A DNA stretch of 35,480 bases, taken from the NCBI GenBank assembly GCA_022729575.1, contig DZAL01000009.1, positions 24,563 to 60,042 on the forward strand, given 5' to 3'. Made by a program: the position numbers and the translations under genes. This DNA comes from Thiomargarita sp. Its GTDB lineage: Bacteria; Pseudomonadota; Gammaproteobacteria; Beggiatoales; Beggiatoaceae. This document shows, in pieces, positions 3,908 to 26,169 of this stretch (the stretch's first letter is position 1; each line of letters begins with the position of its first letter). The notes beneath the pieces are model-generated. The model was not told where the DNA came from. It ran no database searches and saw only the letters and a program-made list of their open reading frames with translations.

Positions 3908-5827
3908 ATGAAATTTTTAATTCCGAGAATCAATATGAACCATTCTCAAACGTTTACGATTACTCAAGCCATTGAATTGGCCAAACAATATTATAAAACT
4001 GGCCAATTGGCTAAAGCGGAAAACATTGCCCGACAAATTTTGCATTCGCAACCACAACAACCGGAGGTACTTCATTTACTTGGGGTGATAGCGGCACAAA
4101 CGCAACGTCATGAGGAGGCCATAAAATTTATTAACTCCGCCATTGCCATCCAACCGACTTCCCCAGCACTTTATAATAGTTTAGGCCAGGTCTTTTGGCA
4201 ACAGAAACAATTAGAGGCCGCTACCCAATGCTATCAACAAGCGTTAGCACTCAATCCAACTTTTGCCGAGGCTTATAATAATTTGGGAATTATTTGGGGC
4301 GAACAAAATCAACTGGAGTCGGCAATCAACTGTTTTCAACAAGCTATCGCGCTTAATCCTCAGGATGCCAAAACTCATTATAATTTGGGGTTAGCATTTA
4401 GTAAATTAGGTCAGTTAACTTCGGCCATTGCTTGTTATCAAACCACTTTGCAACTGAATCCAAACTATGTAGAGGCTTATAGCAGTTTGGGCAAAGTGTT
4501 AAAAGACCGCGCTTTAATTGAGGAGGCGATTGAGTGTTATCGGCAAGCCTTGCGGTTGAAACCCACTTATGTCGAGGCGCATAATAATCTGCTCTATACC
4601 CTGAATTTTTCCTTGCACTTTGACCGGCCGGCGATGTTTGTTGAGCATCAACAGTTTAATCGACAACAGGCACTGCCGCTGGCGGGTCAATTGCGCGGAC
4701 CTTATTTAAATGCCAAAAATGCCAAAAAGGACCCACTGCGGCGGCTAAAAATTGGTTATATCTCCCCAGATTTTAGAAAGCATTCGTTGACCTATTTTGT
4801 GGAGCCGATATTGGCCCACCATGACCATCAGCAATTTGAAATTTTCTGTTATTATAACAACTCTAAAATCGACGCAGTGACTCGCCGCTTGCAAAGTTAC
4901 GCCGACCACTGGCAGACGGTTTGCACTCTTTCGGACGAGGCTTTAGCGGAACAAATTCGCCAAGACCGGATCGATATTTTAGTGGACTTAATGGGACATA
5001 CGGCCAATAATCGCCTGCTGGTCTTTGCTAGAAAACCTGCGCCGATTCAAGTATTTAATACCATTGGCTATTCTAATACGACCGGCTTAACCGCGATAGA
5101 TTATCGCATCAGTGATAGCTGGGTGGACCCCGTGGGCCTGGCGGACCAATATAGCTCCGAGAAAATCATCAGAATGCCAGCCAGTTACTATTGCTATCGT
5201 CCCAATGCAGACAGTCCGCCGGTCAATGAGTTACCGGCCCAGCATAATGGTTATCTCACCTTTGGTTCATTTAATAGCTATGCTAAATTGAATCACTACA
5301 CGTTAGCATTGTGGGCCCGGGTGTTACAAGCCATACCTAATTCCAGATTAGTGATATTAACCAGAGCCTTGCAGGACCCGGTGTTGCAACAGGAATTGCA
5401 AGAGCATTTGCAACAATGGTCTATCGCACCATCACGGTTAACTTTGGGATATGCGGCTTCCACGGAAGAAACTTTGAAACGGTATCACGAGATAGATTTG
5501 GCTTTGGACACTTATCCTTTTACTGGTGCCACTACTACCTGTCAAGCCCTCTGGATGGGAGTCCCGGTGATTACCTTGGTCGGTAAGACCCCCGCCGCCC
5601 GCGCGAGTTTAAGTATTTTGGCCGCAATAAATTTAACTGAATTAGCGACTTACACGCAGGAGGAATATTTAAACTGTTGCGTTAACTTAGCTAATCAGTT
5701 ACCTTATTTACAACATTTACGCGCTCAATTGCGGACGAGAATGCAACAATCCCCATTAATGGACGAGGTCAGTTTTACGCAATATTTGGAAGCGCAATAT
5801 CGGAAGATATGGGAAAACTTCAGATAA
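3908..5827 (+). CDS. TPR protein with glycosyltransferase-41 (SPINDLY/O-GlcNAc transferase-like) domain
   Basis: 639 residues. The first 230 or so are TPR units of 34 residues (motifs such as AYNNLGIIW and AIALNPQ). Residues about 275-635 form the GT41 catalytic region: IGYISPDFRKHS (the DFxxH motif), DRIDILVDLMGHT, ARKPAPIQ, LDTYPFTGATTTC (about 533-545), QALWMGVPV, and a C-terminal YRKIWENFR. Family knowledge suggests transfer of a sugar from a nucleotide donor to protein Ser/Thr, in the cytoplasm. The usual GYPxTTG sequence is changed to GYSNTTG, and the usual Lys after the beta-strand (LLLK) reads ILTR here, so donor use may differ. An in-frame ATG at 3935 is preceded by GAGA and is an alternative start. 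It is followed by a similar gene at 6087 after a repeat-filled gap, suggesting tandem duplication. Confidence 0.88.
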   Translation: MKFLIPRINMNHSQTFTITQAIELAKQYYKTGQLAKAENIARQILHSQPQQPEVLHLLGVIAAQTQRHEEAIKFINSAIAIQPTSPALYNSLGQVFWQQKQLEAATQCYQQALALNPTFAEAYNNLGIIWGEQNQLESAINCFQQAIALNPQDAKTHYNLGLAFSKLGQLTSAIACYQTTLQLNPNYVEAYSSLGKVLKDRALIEEAIECYRQALRLKPTYVEAHNNLLYTLNFSLHFDRPAMFVEHQQFNRQQALPLAGQLRGPYLNAKNAKKDPLRRLKIGYISPDFRKHSLTYFVEPILAHHDHQQFEIFCYYNNSKIDAVTRRLQSYADHWQTVCTLSDEALAEQIRQDRIDILVDLMGHTANNRLLVFARKPAPIQVFNTIGYSNTTGLTAIDYRISDSWVDPVGLADQYSSEKIIRMPASYYCYRPNADSPPVNELPAQHNGYLTFGSFNSYAKLNHYTLALWARVLQAIPNSRLVILTRALQDPVLQQELQEHLQQWSIAPSRLTLGYAASTEETLKRYHEIDLALDTYPFTGATTTCQALWMGVPVITLVGKTPAARASLSILAAINLTELATYTQEEYLNCCVNLANQLPYLQHLRAQLRTRMQQSPLMDEVSFTQYLEAQYRKIWENFR

Positions 5828-6105
5828 GTAGTTGGAGTCCGGAATTCATTCCGTCTTCAGTTTTGACCGCAGGGTGAAGACGGAATAAATTCCGGACTCC
5901 AACTACTTATGATACCTCAACTCATAACACAGATAAGTAGTTGGAGTCCGGAATTCATTCCGTCTTCAGTTTTGACCGCAGGGTGAAGACGGAATAAATT
6001 CCGGACTCCAACTACTTATGATACCTCAACTCATAACACTTTAACAGCGGGGTGAAGACGGAATAAATTCCGGACTCCAACTACTTATGATACCTCAACT
6101 CATAC
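5821..6105. repeat. 109-bp tandem repeat carrying duplicated gene start; each unit a long hairpin
   Basis: Two full copies begin at 5821 and 5930 and a partial third spans about 6048-6105. Each full unit contains a near-perfect 32-bp inverted repeat (AGTAGTTGGAGTCCGGAAT with its complement, separated by a short loop). Each unit also contains ATGATACCTCAACTCATA, the first 18 bases of the gene starting at 6087. Decoy ATGs therefore lie at 5909 and 6018. The unit also includes the last bases of the upstream gene (CAGATAAG). Confidence 0.95.
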
Positions 6106-7967
6106 AACAAGCCATACAACACATAGAAGCCGGTGAATTATCAGCGACCGAAGACCTATGTCAGCAAATTTTAGAGCTTGACCCCCAAAACAGTGATGCT
6201 TGGCATTTATTAGGCGCGGTCAATGCGCATCGTGACCAGAATGAAATTGCCCTGGAAAAAATTCAGCAAGCCATCACGCTGAATCCCAGCGCTTATGATT
6301 ACTACAATAGCTTAGGCAACGTCTTGACCAGCCTTAAACGTTTTACCGAAGCGGTCGAATGTTATCGCCGGACCGTACAATTGTCTCCTCAGTTTGCCCA
6401 AGGCTATCAAAACTTAGGCATTGCACTCATTGAACTAAAATGTCATGCCGAAGCGGTCACCTGTCTGCGTCGAGCGTTAACTCTGGAACCGCAGAATACT
6501 GCTATTCACCAACCTCTGGCACTGGCACTCAGAGGAGATGAGAAAATCTCAGAGTCAACGGCAACCCTCGAATTGGCCTTATCTATAACGCCAGATGATG
6601 CTGACCTCTATTATCAGTTGTCTATAAACAAGATGGTTTACCAAGGACAAGTGGAGGAGGGAATCGTACTGGCTAACCAGGCACTAGACCTCAACCCTTA
6701 TCATATCAGCGCACATCAACACCTGTTAATGACTTTAAATTATTCGTTACGAGAGAATTCTAGCATTTTCAAGGAATATCAAAAATTTGATGAACAACAC
6801 GCGATGCCGTTAGCGACTTTGATTCAGCCGCCTTTAAATCCTCGTACTCCCACTAAACGTTTGAACATCGGTTACGTTTCCGGGGATTTTTACAAACATT
6901 CGGTGGCTTATTTTCTGCAATTTTTAGCTCACCATGACCACACCAACTTTGAAATTTTTTGCTATCATACTCAACCCCATGTTGATGACATTACCAAGGG
7001 CGTACAAGGATGGATTGATAACTGGTGTCAAGTTGAAGATTTGTCGGATGACGCTTTAGCGGCTAAAATTAGAGCCGACCAGATTGATATTCTGGTCGAC
7101 CTGTCAGGACATACCAATTATAATAGACTGTTGACGTTTGCCCGCAAACCCGCGCCAATCCAAATCAATTATTTGGGTCTGCCTACTACCACGGGAATCC
7201 GGGCCATAGATTATCGTCTCACCGACAATTATGTCGACGTAGCGGGACTCAACGATAATCTCAGTGCCGAAGAGCCGCTACCTATGCCGGCTTCACTCTT
7301 TTGTTATCAACCAAATCCAAAAAGTCCTGCCATTAATGAGCTACCGTCTCTTAGTACGGGCCAACTTACCTTTGGTTGCTTCAATCATTCGGTCAAATAC
7401 AGTCTTCCACTACTGACTTTATGGGCCAAGATTTTGAACAGCATTGACCAAGCCAAACTCTTGCTTAAACTCAATCACGAGGCGGATGCAGTGACTAAAC
7501 AAGAACTAACCCAACGTTTTCTTGACGCTGGCTGCCAACCTTCGCAACTCATTTTTGAAGCGCGTGGGCCAGCCCCAGACTATTTAAAAACTTATCATCA
7601 AATCGATATAGCCCTCGATACTTACCCCTTCAATGGCGGCACCACCACCTGTGAAGCCCTGTGGATGGGAATCCCCGTGGTCACTTGGGTCGGCACCCGA
7701 CAAGTCTCACGGTTAGGATTAAGTATTTTATCAACCATCGGCTTAACTCAATTAATTGCACACTCACCAGAAGAATATTTGCGCATCTGCATAGACTTGG
7801 CCCAGAATCCCACTCAGTTACAAACGCTCCGGGCCACGATGCGAGAACGAATGCAAAATTCTCCGCTCATGGATGCACCGACCTTTACCCAACAGTTAGA
7901 ACTGCGTTATCGGAAAATCTGGGAAAAATTCAGATTTGACAACTTTTCGAAAGTTGTCAAATCTTGA
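6087..7967 (+). CDS. TPR protein with glycosyltransferase-41 (SPINDLY/O-GlcNAc transferase-like) domain
   Basis: 626 residues, a diverged paralogue of the preceding gene. TPR units occupy about 1-240. The GT41 region carries IGYVSGDFYKHS, DILVDLSGHT, ARKPAPIQINYLGLPTTTG, LLLKL (the Lys missing from the neighbour), LDTYPFNGGTTTCEALWMG and RKIWEKFR. The paralogue stops right after the equivalent NFR. This one runs on for FDNFSKVVKS, which is entirely the palindromic repeat at 7932 read through to the TGA inside it. The start at 6087 continues into the conserved TPR. The two upstream ATGs in the repeat are copies of this start and lead to short dead frames. Likely a cytoplasmic protein O-glycosyltransferase; substrate unknown. 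Confidence 0.88.
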   Translation: MIPQLIQQAIQHIEAGELSATEDLCQQILELDPQNSDAWHLLGAVNAHRDQNEIALEKIQQAITLNPSAYDYYNSLGNVLTSLKRFTEAVECYRRTVQLSPQFAQGYQNLGIALIELKCHAEAVTCLRRALTLEPQNTAIHQPLALALRGDEKISESTATLELALSITPDDADLYYQLSINKMVYQGQVEEGIVLANQALDLNPYHISAHQHLLMTLNYSLRENSSIFKEYQKFDEQHAMPLATLIQPPLNPRTPTKRLNIGYVSGDFYKHSVAYFLQFLAHHDHTNFEIFCYHTQPHVDDITKGVQGWIDNWCQVEDLSDDALAAKIRADQIDILVDLSGHTNYNRLLTFARKPAPIQINYLGLPTTTGIRAIDYRLTDNYVDVAGLNDNLSAEEPLPMPASLFCYQPNPKSPAINELPSLSTGQLTFGCFNHSVKYSLPLLTLWAKILNSIDQAKLLLKLNHEADAVTKQELTQRFLDAGCQPSQLIFEARGPAPDYLKTYHQIDIALDTYPFNGGTTTCEALWMGIPVVTWVGTRQVSRLGLSILSTIGLTQLIAHSPEEYLRICIDLAQNPTQLQTLRATMRERMQNSPLMDAPTFTQQLELRYRKIWEKFRFDNFSKVVKS

Positions 7968-8143
7968 CGCGGTTTAGATTTGTGGTTTAGATTTGACAAC
8001 TTTTCGAAAGTTGTCAAATCTTGGGCCCGGTCAGATTTGACAACTTTGCGAAAGTTGTCAAATCTTGGGCCCGGTCAGATTTGACAACTTTGCGAAAGTT
8101 GTCAAATCTTGGGTCCGGTCAGATTTGACAACTCCAGATTTGG
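7932..8143. repeat. Palindromic repeat R1 array, 44-bp period
   Basis: Full units begin at 7932, 7989, 8033 and 8077, with a half unit at 8121. The last steps are exactly 44 bp. Each unit is a GATTTGACAACTTT palindrome with a 3-nt centre (TCG or GCG), and the linkers (GGGCCCGGTC type) are only 9-10 bp. The first copy lies inside the end of the upstream coding region. Confidence 0.95.
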
Positions 8144-10075: not shown

Positions 10076-10081
10076 AATATG

Positions 10082-10477
10082 ATGACTACACGAGTGATTA
10101 TCTGCGTTGATGATGAGACCCTAGTCTTAGAAAATCTGGAGATTGAACTACAAAAAGCGTTTGCGGATGCTTACGACTACGAATTTGCAGAAAGTGCCGA
10201 GGAGGCACTAGAAATTATCGATGAGTTACTCAATGAGAAGATTGAGATTCTAGTCGTAGTCTCCGATTGGTTAATGCCGGGCATGAAAGGTGACGAATTT
10301 TTGGTTCAAGTCCACCAAAAATTACCTAACACCATTAAAATCATGTTGACCGGCCAAGCCGACCAACAAGCGATTGAACGGGCGCAACAGGAAGCGAATT
10401 TGCATCGTTGCCTATTTAAACCTTGGAGTAGTAAAGAATTTATTGACGTGATACGATTAAGTTTGGCCACTCTATGA
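10082..10477 (+). CDS. Single-domain response regulator (receiver)
   Basis: 131 residues, one CheY-like receiver: acidic pocket D10/D11, phospho-acceptor D62 in VVVSDWLMPG, T90 in MLTGQ and K113 in LFKPW. No output domain, so it probably relays phosphate or acts by protein contact. The in-frame extension back to 9983 would only add R4 repeat sequence, so I choose 10082. It overlaps the next gene by 4 bp (ATGA at 10474), indicating translational coupling. The GAF kinase upstream is the natural phosphodonor; the FKPW motif is common in receivers linked to hybrid kinases. Confidence 0.88.
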   Translation: MTTRVIICVDDETLVLENLEIELQKAFADAYDYEFAESAEEALEIIDELLNEKIEILVVVSDWLMPGMKGDEFLVQVHQKLPNTIKIMLTGQADQQAIERAQQEANLHRCLFKPWSSKEFIDVIRLSLATL

Positions 10478-11718
10478 ATCAAATAGCGATTATTTGCGTT
10501 GACGATGACGCTTCCATTTTAGATAGTTTGGAAATAGAACTCCATAAAATTGTTAAGAGTGAAACCGATTTAACAACTTTTGAACAGTTGTCAAATCTCA
10601 CCCACGATGAGTATCTGATTGAGATGGTAGATAACGGCGAAGAATGTTTAGAACTTTGTCAAGAGTTATTGGCCAATGGTGATGAAATTGCATTAGTGAT
10701 TTCTGACTGTATCATGCCTCAGATGAGAGGAGATGAATTACTCAAACAGGTTCATACGCTATCCCCCAACACGCTTACCATCATGTTAACCGGTCAAGCC
10801 GAATTTGAAGCGTTAGGCAATGCGATCCGTTATGCCAAATTATATCGTTACATTTCCAAACCTTGGGAATTTGAAGATTTTAAATTAACGGTCACCGAAG
10901 CCTTACACAGTTATCATCAAGAACAGAAATTAATAGCATTTTACGCCAACTTAGAGGAAAAAATTGCCCAACGGACTCAAGAGTTACAGCAAAAAAATAC
11001 GGCATTACTAAAACTGGATCAGGAGAGAAAGGAATTTTTAGCGATTGCCGCCCATGATTTAAAAAATCCACTGTCAGCAATTCAAGGGCTGGCCGATCTA
11101 ATTATCGGTGACTATGATACGCTAGCTAAGAGCGAGGTCACGGAAATGGTGAATATGATTCTCATCAGTTCCAAACAAATGTTTGAGATAGTGAATAATC
11201 TGTTGGAGGTGAATCTTATTGAATCCGAGAACATGAAAGTTTCTCTTCAAGAATTGGATATTTTGCCCATACTACAGGTTTTGGTGAATCGCTATGTGGT
11301 GCCGGCGCAGGCGAAAAACATTACTTTAAATTTTAAGCCTAAGCCAGAGTCATATTACACTTTGGCTGATGTTTATCTTATTCAACGAGTTTTTGACAAT
11401 CTGCTCTCCAATGCGGTTAAATATTCTCCTTTTGATAAAACTATCTATATCCGGTTAACTCAGTTGGCAAACACGGTCCGTTGTGAAATACAAGATGAAG
11501 GGCCTGGCTTAAGTGAAGCAGATCAGAACAAGTTATTTGGTAAGTTTAGTCGTTTAACGCCGGCACCTACGGGACAAGAAAATTCTACGGGATTAGGTTT
11601 GTTTATTGTGAAAAAATTAGTGGAGGCAATGAAAGGTAAAGTATGGTGTGAAAGCCAATTAGGGAAGGGTTCCTCATTTATTGTAGAATTTATTGGTAAT
11701 TCAGAAACTCGTGCATGA
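10474..11718 (+). CDS. Receiver-histidine kinase hybrid protein
   Basis: 414 residues: N-terminal receiver (D10-D12, acceptor D78 in VISDCIMPQ, T106 in LTGQ, K129 in SKPW), a coiled-coil linker (about 148-187), H-box IAAHDLKNPLSA (His about 194), N-box DNLLSNAVKYS, G1 IQDEGPGLSE and G2 STGLGLFIVKK. No membrane segment is present. Relative to the neighbouring receiver, all post-insertion landmarks are shifted by exactly 16 residues (D62 to D78, T90 to T106, K113 to K129). The extra segment contains DLTTFEQLSNL, encoded by a diverged copy of palindrome R1. The insertion falls between the first helix and the acceptor strand. It is co-translated with the preceding receiver; the two may pass phosphate to each other. 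Confidence 0.9.
   Translation: MNQIAIICVDDDASILDSLEIELHKIVKSETDLTTFEQLSNLTHDEYLIEMVDNGEECLELCQELLANGDEIALVISDCIMPQMRGDELLKQVHTLSPNTLTIMLTGQAEFEALGNAIRYAKLYRYISKPWEFEDFKLTVTEALHSYHQEQKLIAFYANLEEKIAQRTQELQQKNTALLKLDQERKEFLAIAAHDLKNPLSAIQGLADLIIGDYDTLAKSEVTEMVNMILISSKQMFEIVNNLLEVNLIESENMKVSLQELDILPILQVLVNRYVVPAQAKNITLNFKPKPESYYTLADVYLIQRVFDNLLSNAVKYSPFDKTIYIRLTQLANTVRCEIQDEGPGLSEADQNKLFGKFSRLTPAPTGQENSTGLGLFIVKKLVEAMKGKVWCESQLGKGSSFIVEFIGNSETRA
10566..10600 (+). repeat. Diverged R1 palindrome inside a coding region
   Basis: 35 bases match the R1 unit at 28 positions, including GATTT, ACAACTTTT and AGTTGTCAAATCT. They are read in frame as residues about 31-42 of the receiver-kinase. The frame used has no stop in R1 copies generally. 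Confidence 0.8.
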
Positions 11719-22721: not shown

Positions 22722-22837
22722 TATAGTAATACTCACCTACTGTTGTACTTTTCGAGGGATAACACCCCTTCGAGGGGTGTTATCCCTGCTGGCTGGCCAA
22801 ACTCATTATGGGACAACTGGATAAGGATATTACTATA
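22722..22837. mobile_element. Short element with TATAGTAAT terminal inverted repeats
   Basis: TATAGTAAT (22722-22730) is mirrored by ATTACTATA (22829-22837). The interior holds a palindrome AGGGATAACACCCCTTCG plus complement (22755-22787), a family also found at 34687-34714 and 34930-34962. Non-coding, about 116 bp, compatible with a MITE-like element. Confidence 0.5.
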
Positions 22838-23236: not shown

Positions 23237-23364
23237 AGATTTGACAACTTTTTTAAAGTTGTCAAATCTGGAGTTTAGATTTGACAACTTTTTTAAAGTT
23301 GTCAAATCTGGAGTTTAGATTTGACAACTTTTTTAAAGTTGTCAAATCTGGAGTTGTCAAATCT
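23237..23364. repeat. Palindromic repeat R1 array, 40-bp period
   Basis: Three full units start at 23237, 23277 and 23317, followed by a half unit (GTTGTCAAATCT) ending at 23364. The centre is TTTAAA-like rather than TCG and the linker is GGAGTTT, so this array has a 40-bp period. It immediately precedes a small membrane-protein gene and is open in that gene's frame. Confidence 0.95.
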
Positions 23365-25733: not shown

Positions 25734-25838
25734 CCCGAAGTTCAAGTTAGTTCGTAACTCAGTAAAGATACTAAACTCGTCTGGATTCTCTAAAGGAAGA
25801 AATTAAGGGTAATGCCATTTTGCTGGAGTCCAAGTCTT

Positions 25839-26169
25839 CAGCCGTAACATTACTAACAGTCTGACGTTTTAGTAGTAAAGCCACCGGCTAGTAATGAAAC
25901 TCTCGGCCAGACCTCGGAGGTCTTCGAGACCTCGGAGGTCTAACTCGCTAATCCGCCATTTTCTGTTCCACCAGCCGCCAAATTTGGTCAGCCGTAACAT
26001 TACTAACAGTCTGACGTTTTAGCAGTAAAGCCACCGGCTAGTAATGAAACTTTCGGCCAGACCTCCGAGGTCTTCGAGACCTCGGAGGTCTAACTCGCTA
26101 ATCAGCCATTTTCTGTTCCACCAGCCGCAAAATTTGGTCAACCGTAACATTACTAACAGTCTGACGTTT
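25839..26169. repeat. 150-bp tandem repeat made from the 3' end of the FG-GAP gene
   Basis: Units begin at about 25839 and 25989; a third partial copy (26139-26169) lies inside the gene. Each unit carries CCGTAACATTACTAACAGTC, a GACCTCGGAGGTC double hairpin and a copy of the gene's last codons with its stop. The copies differ by silent and Leu-to-Trp changes, so they are not recent identical duplicates. The remaining spacer 25734-25838 shows nothing else. Confidence 0.95.

Follow-up and report, generated by a model that had tools for sequence, protein, structure and literature searches.

A palindromic repeat inserted in frame in a receiver-histidine kinase gene of Thiomargarita sp. and its association with a putative Y1/HUH transposase

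Background

Repetitive extragenic palindromes (REPs) of the GTAG/CGTC type form in-frame coding sequence in many genes, as single copies or as clusters that encode tens of residues (Di Nocera et al. 2013, PMC3733652), and REPs inside the transposase genes of TnpAREP subclass 2.4 have already been published (Quentin et al. 2018, PMC6006769). Here we describe a 33-bp palindrome, R1, that lies within a gene for a receiver-histidine kinase of Thiomargarita sp. The gene is located on a stretch of 35,480 nucleotides (the window; contig C98, positions 24563-60042) from a draft genome of 6.57 Mb in 451 contigs. The named homologues (Parabeggiatoa, Thiomargarita, Thioploca, Marithrix) point to the family Beggiatoaceae. 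The preliminary description of the window had regarded repeat-derived protein segments as rare; with intragenic REPs published from several genera (PMC3733652) and from TnpAREP subclass 2.4 (PMC6006769), the case is less exceptional than that.

Results

The insertion in the kinase receiver

The kinase gene (10474-11718, forward strand) encodes 414 amino acids with the Pfam domains Response_reg, HisKA and HATPase_c, and its receiver was confirmed to carry a lineage-restricted in-frame insertion of R1. When the receiver was aligned with orthologous receiver-kinases and neighbouring receivers of related genomes (20 other sequences, including 15 or more of the receiver-kinases), it alone had 16 extra columns. 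The excess over the adjacent stand-alone receiver (10079-10477, forward strand), which has no insert, is exactly the 16 residues given in the preliminary description, and the offset between D62 and D78 holds provided that this first receiver starts at its second ATG. The closest orthologue, locus L025 from a metagenome-assembled genome of Thiomargarita sp., has a receiver 80% identical to that of the kinase and the same two-receiver arrangement, without the insert. Its kinase frame is apparently broken further downstream, the receiver being intact across the insertion site. R1 was not found in the L025 genome at up to 3 mismatches. The close orthologues, this R1-free one included, thus lack the 16 residues, as had been predicted, and no orthologue from a genome without R1 was found to share them. 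An ancestral receiver loop is ruled out by the orthologues, all of those aligned being without the segment.

Compared with L025 at the DNA level the insert is 48 nt long and is best placed at 10558-10605 on the forward strand (codons 29-44, residues SETDLTTFEQLSNLTH), with a boundary ambiguous by a few nt. It is made up of the 8 nt AGTGAAAC, an R1 core (10566-10598, forward strand) read in the frame DLTTFxxLSNL, and a CACCCAC tail (10599-10605, forward strand) that is common to a subfamily of R1 and whose end is the end of the insertion. The core matched 27 of the 30 constrained consensus positions (3 mismatches) and 28 of 33 positions of the commonest copy. An R1 copy had been recognized in the preliminary description as a 35-bp match at 28 positions; the copy is there, but the inserted segment is the longer one of 48 nt. 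In shuffled sequence no R1 match was obtained at up to 8 mismatches, and a chance match was ruled out by these shuffles and the genome survey below. In the DNA examined, the CACCC(A) tail was found at 16 other R1 copies, which makes 17 listed with that in the kinase. The insert has about 2 differences from the CACCCAC subfamily, one synonymous (TTG to TTA) and one changing K to Q, whereas in the flanking kinase gene the divergence from L025 is about 25% at the DNA level, indicating that the insertion is recent and younger than the L025 split. No clear target-site duplication was visible at the sole empty site resolved in DNA, where the aligned relative is about 25% diverged. No Rfam family was found at the locus.

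AlphaFold2 was run on 26 sequences from the window and the fetched loci. The receiver model had a mean pLDDT (predicted local distance difference test) of 89.4 and kept the five strands and the helices of the receiver fold; the conserved residues D10, D11, D78, T106 and K129 are retained. In the model, residues 33-46 form the loop joining alpha1 to beta2, with pLDDT below 50 at residues 36-44. In CheY-like receivers the active site and this loop are at opposite ends of the sheet. The insert is thus predicted to be a disordered alpha1-beta2 loop distant from the active site in a receiver that keeps its fold, in line with the surface loop expected earlier.

Copy number and distribution of R1

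R1 is a perfect 15+3+15 palindrome, AGATTTGACAACTTT-NNN-AAAGTTGTCAAATCT. With up to 3 mismatches allowed, 2,030 places in the whole genome match it, while the backwards control pattern gave 0. A genome of the same genus had 66 copies. R1 was not found in 38 other relatives at up to 3 mismatches. In a class-wide sample the remaining 368 genomes gave no match with up to 2 mismatches, and the R1 sequence was not found in the literature searched. Two of its three frames are open (DLTTFxKLSNL and RFDNFxKVVKS) and the third has a TGA; that the kinase frame is an open one had been stated correctly before.

Genes were surveyed in 1.64 Mb of the genome, about a quarter, using our own simple hexamer model for gene calling. 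Since the contigs were chosen partly for their R1 hits, the number of copies in genes is not to be extrapolated. Among the 715 R1 copies surveyed, 501 were intergenic and 79 overlapped gene ends. The view of R1 as an intergenic repeat holds for most copies surveyed, but R1 is also found in genes and is tied to a putative Y1 transposase gene that contains it. Internal copies in an open frame, preceded and followed by coding signal, were present in at least 16 genes besides the kinase. These hosts include FtsI, an ArnT-like transferase, TIR, NlpC/P60, CHAT and GH57 proteins, a helicase, a methyltransferase, three histidine kinases and the transposase described below; in other proteins, for example RuvB and a Mur ligase, R1 forms a C-terminal tail. 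One further candidate host, at C87 47549, was discarded as a 7-mismatch match.

FtsI contains four R1 copies, about 80 residues, at a place where orthologues and solved structures join the transpeptidase segments directly, and FtsI orthologues from 24 relatives that cover the site were without the segment. In the ArnT-like protein there are six copies, in a segment missing in ArnT orthologues. Separately, the frame of FtsI in the same-genus genome (3' end of L184, G001:C114) enters a different palindrome (...VVALTPDPSPRGRGE) at the R1 site, where the contig ends; the same FtsI loop may there have received a second repeat.

All 27 spacings within in-gene arrays were multiples of 3, compared with 99 of 293 in intergenic arrays; counted by array, this was the case in 10 of 10 in genes vs 25 of 106 between genes (P = 2e-6). 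The open frame required for an "internal" call favours this result, as a copy in the other open frame would still pass and a copy in the closed frame would not. At the internal loci the DLTTF frame was used 15 times and the other open frame twice (P = 0.002). The idea that coding copies form weaker hairpins was rejected, the number of broken hairpin pairs in coding copies being no different from that in other copies.

A putative Y1/HUH transposase gene flanked by and containing R1

Positions 18875-19498 of contig C294 encode a 208-aa protein with the motifs INHFHLLV and YIHANP. Its gene, which the Pfam model PF01797 missed, came to light in the gene survey. The HUH and Y motifs, together with a same-genome paralogue that is 46% identical and passes the PF01797 cut-off, suggest that it is a Y1 transposase. 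On the upstream side there are four perfect R1 copies, of which the last ends 28 bp ahead of the start, and on the downstream side six, of which the first lies 10 bp past the stop. One more perfect copy is located in frame inside the gene, 10 residues beyond the point where the HUH motif begins, and is read as PDLTTFRKLSNL, in the same frame as the copy in the kinase. R1 has the size and number of a REP (33-bp palindrome, 2,030 copies, 501 of 715 surveyed copies intergenic) and flanks a probable cognate gene of RAYT/TnpAREP type (RAYT, REP-associated tyrosine transposase), and the in-frame palindrome between the HuH and Y motifs, a trait of subclass 2.4, is present in this gene and likewise in homologues of it.

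Homologues of the same family bear their own 33-bp palindromes, and for L275, L276, L277, L283 and C131 the same palindrome, or one nearly identical to it, was seen in the flanks as well. No internal palindrome was found in L279, L280, L282 and L306-L308, nor in any of 17 class-wide Y1 relatives outside the family, which come from other, more distant groups. A close homologue of the C294 transposase was not found in the L025 genome. The first five Y1_Tnp hits were rejected as the transposase of R1, having no R1 in their flanks; three of them adjoin other palindromes. In L279, L280 and L307, which lack an intact internal palindrome, a short DLSGL/DLTGL-like stretch occupies its position and may be what remained after a hairpin was deleted.

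Other repeats of the window and genome

In the window, perfect R1 copies start at 14, 7932, 7989, 8033, 8077, 23237, 23277 and 23317, in addition to the copy with 3 mismatches at 10566. The first is a single copy (14-46). The second (7932-7964, forward strand) overlaps the 3' end of a TPR/glycosyltransferase-41-like gene (6087-7967) and supplies its last 11 codons (RFDNFSKVVKS*), with the TGA directly after the repeat. The remainder form two intergenic groups of three, spaced by 44 bp (7989-8109) and by 40 bp (23237-23349).

The second transposase paralogue, L303 (G000:C131:5470-6244), has three AGGGATAACACCCCT palindromes after the HUH motif, one near the N terminus and more in the flanks; further copies of this palindrome are present in the window, near 22755, 34687 and 34930. 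The third paralogue, L181 (G000:C144), has ten flanking AAGTTTCCTAAACCT palindromes and none found inside. The AAGTTTCCTAAACCT family has fewer open frames than R1, and 0 of its 84 copies lie in genes. A tandem 109-bp repeat with 36-bp inverted arms (ATAAGTAGTTGGAGTCCGGAATTC...) is found at 5821-6107 of the window, and it has GGAGTCC in common with the palindromes adjoining the Y1 transposase L180. At 25838-26169 there are 150-bp direct repeats, 97-100% identical, in two copies and part of a third.

Discussion

R1 is most likely a REP element of a Y1/HUH transposase (RAYT), and the most fitting description is that of a REP-like palindrome belonging to a transposase that resembles those of subclass 2.4. 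We consider it highly probable that R1 is a mobile palindrome of REP type, spread by such a transposase, which was inserted in the kinase gene and tolerated there. The transposase, probably that of C294, would spread R1 through single-stranded hairpin DNA, and a copy of the CACCCAC subfamily would have entered the kinase gene after the split from the lineage of the closest sequenced orthologue. The insertion would be tolerated as a disordered loop of 16 residues, and the kinase protein would have stayed intact because two frames of R1 are open, the inserted 48 nt are divisible by three and the alpha1-beta2 loop is opposite the phosphorylation site.

Several points weigh against this reading. 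Movement of R1 was not observed, and the genome is a draft of 451 contigs. PF01797 gave no hit on the C294 transposase at E 0.01. The GT[AG]G foot of canonical REPs is absent from R1, no base is dominant in the flanks of 713 copies, and a GTGG-like foot was seen only in the CACCCAC subfamily. In the same-genus genome, despite its 66 copies, no close homologue of the C294 transposase was found. The missing foot and the 66-copy genome also speak for spread of R1 by another route, as a miniature inverted-repeat transposable element (MITE) of a DDE transposon or by gene conversion or replication slippage between palindromes, which would make the C294 transposase a bystander; many unrelated genes are also interrupted by R1, and the tandem arrays show that local duplication is at work as well. 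A bystander, however, would hardly account for four upstream and six downstream copies immediately beside one gene, for homologues elsewhere that repeat this layout with different palindromes flanking and inside the same protein segment, or for two other paralogues of the same genome tied to other palindrome families. We regard such a route as unlikely.

That the insertion was kept since it changes the behaviour of the kinase, for example its dimerisation or signalling, appears more improbable still. Several R1 hosts are histidine kinases (this kinase, two genes on C353 and one on C369), but the hosts as a whole are functionally mixed, the copies in genes resemble tolerated clutter, and the modelled loop is disordered and sits at the other end of the sheet from the active site. 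Neutral tolerance in the kinase, rather than a new function, would fit these data better. Loop lengths of receivers generally vary, so that an ordinary lineage-specific expansion with a coincidental likeness to R1 could be imagined; its probability is negligible, as 27 of 30 positions match a repeat of 2,030 copies with no such match in shuffles at up to 8 mismatches, the CACCCAC flank, too, is that of an R1 subfamily, and the peptide recurs in no fewer than 15 unrelated proteins.

Under the preferred explanation, spread by a Y1/HUH transposase, the copy within the transposase gene deserves attention. As R1 is coding inside its own transposase gene, selection there might keep it open in the DLTTFxxLSNL frame, so that every daughter copy would be pre-adapted as a harmless peptide and this REP/RAYT class would be a standing generator of in-frame loop insertions in host proteins, even in essential ones. 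We put this forward tentatively and with some doubt. The bias towards the DLTTF frame would fit it, as would the absence from genes of the AAGTTTCCTAAACCT family, with its fewer open frames and with no internal copy found in its candidate transposase L181, both on small numbers.

The R1 copies document that mobile DNA has recently entered working proteins in a bacterial genome that is large and apparently free-living, and the sites are empty in relatives; the hosts include the essential division protein FtsI, and a candidate transposase is at hand. The hosts form a natural collection of tolerated in-frame insertions, and the system allows a direct test of whether transposase-resident palindromes are frame-selected sources of new protein segments.

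Compared with known systems, R1 is a large new example and not a new category. Like the C294 system, TnpAREP subclass 2.4 (PMC6006769) has NHFH and YIxxNP-type motifs in proteins of about 200 aa; the NH[IFV]H motif, YIxNNP-type motif and about 194 aa of the subclass compare with NHFH, YIHANP and 208 aa in the C294 protein. Unlike the REPs of that subclass, R1 has neither a conserved GT[AG]G foot nor three G-C pairs to close the stem base, is a perfect 15+3+15 palindrome in about 2,000 copies and has invaded many host proteins; Beggiatoa and Thiotrichales are not mentioned in the text of PMC6006769. The intragenic GTAG/CGTC REPs (PMC3733652) share with R1 the in-frame location in genes and differ in sequence, and the empty orthologue sites, frame preference and multiple-of-3 spacing shown here go beyond them. 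By the description in PMC10969869, the Rickettsia palindromic elements (Ogata et al. 2000/2002) likewise encode peptide inserts in unrelated proteins; the first described, according to the same source, are about 150 bp long and belong to reduced intracellular genomes, whereas R1 is 33 bp long and resides in a 6.6-Mb genome with a candidate transposase. Abundant palindromic repeats in giant sulfur bacteria are also known from Candidatus Thiomargarita nelsonii, but its MITEs, which carry direct repeats, exceed R1 in length and disrupt genes (hupL) (PMC4853749), whereas R1 preserves the reading frames of its hosts.
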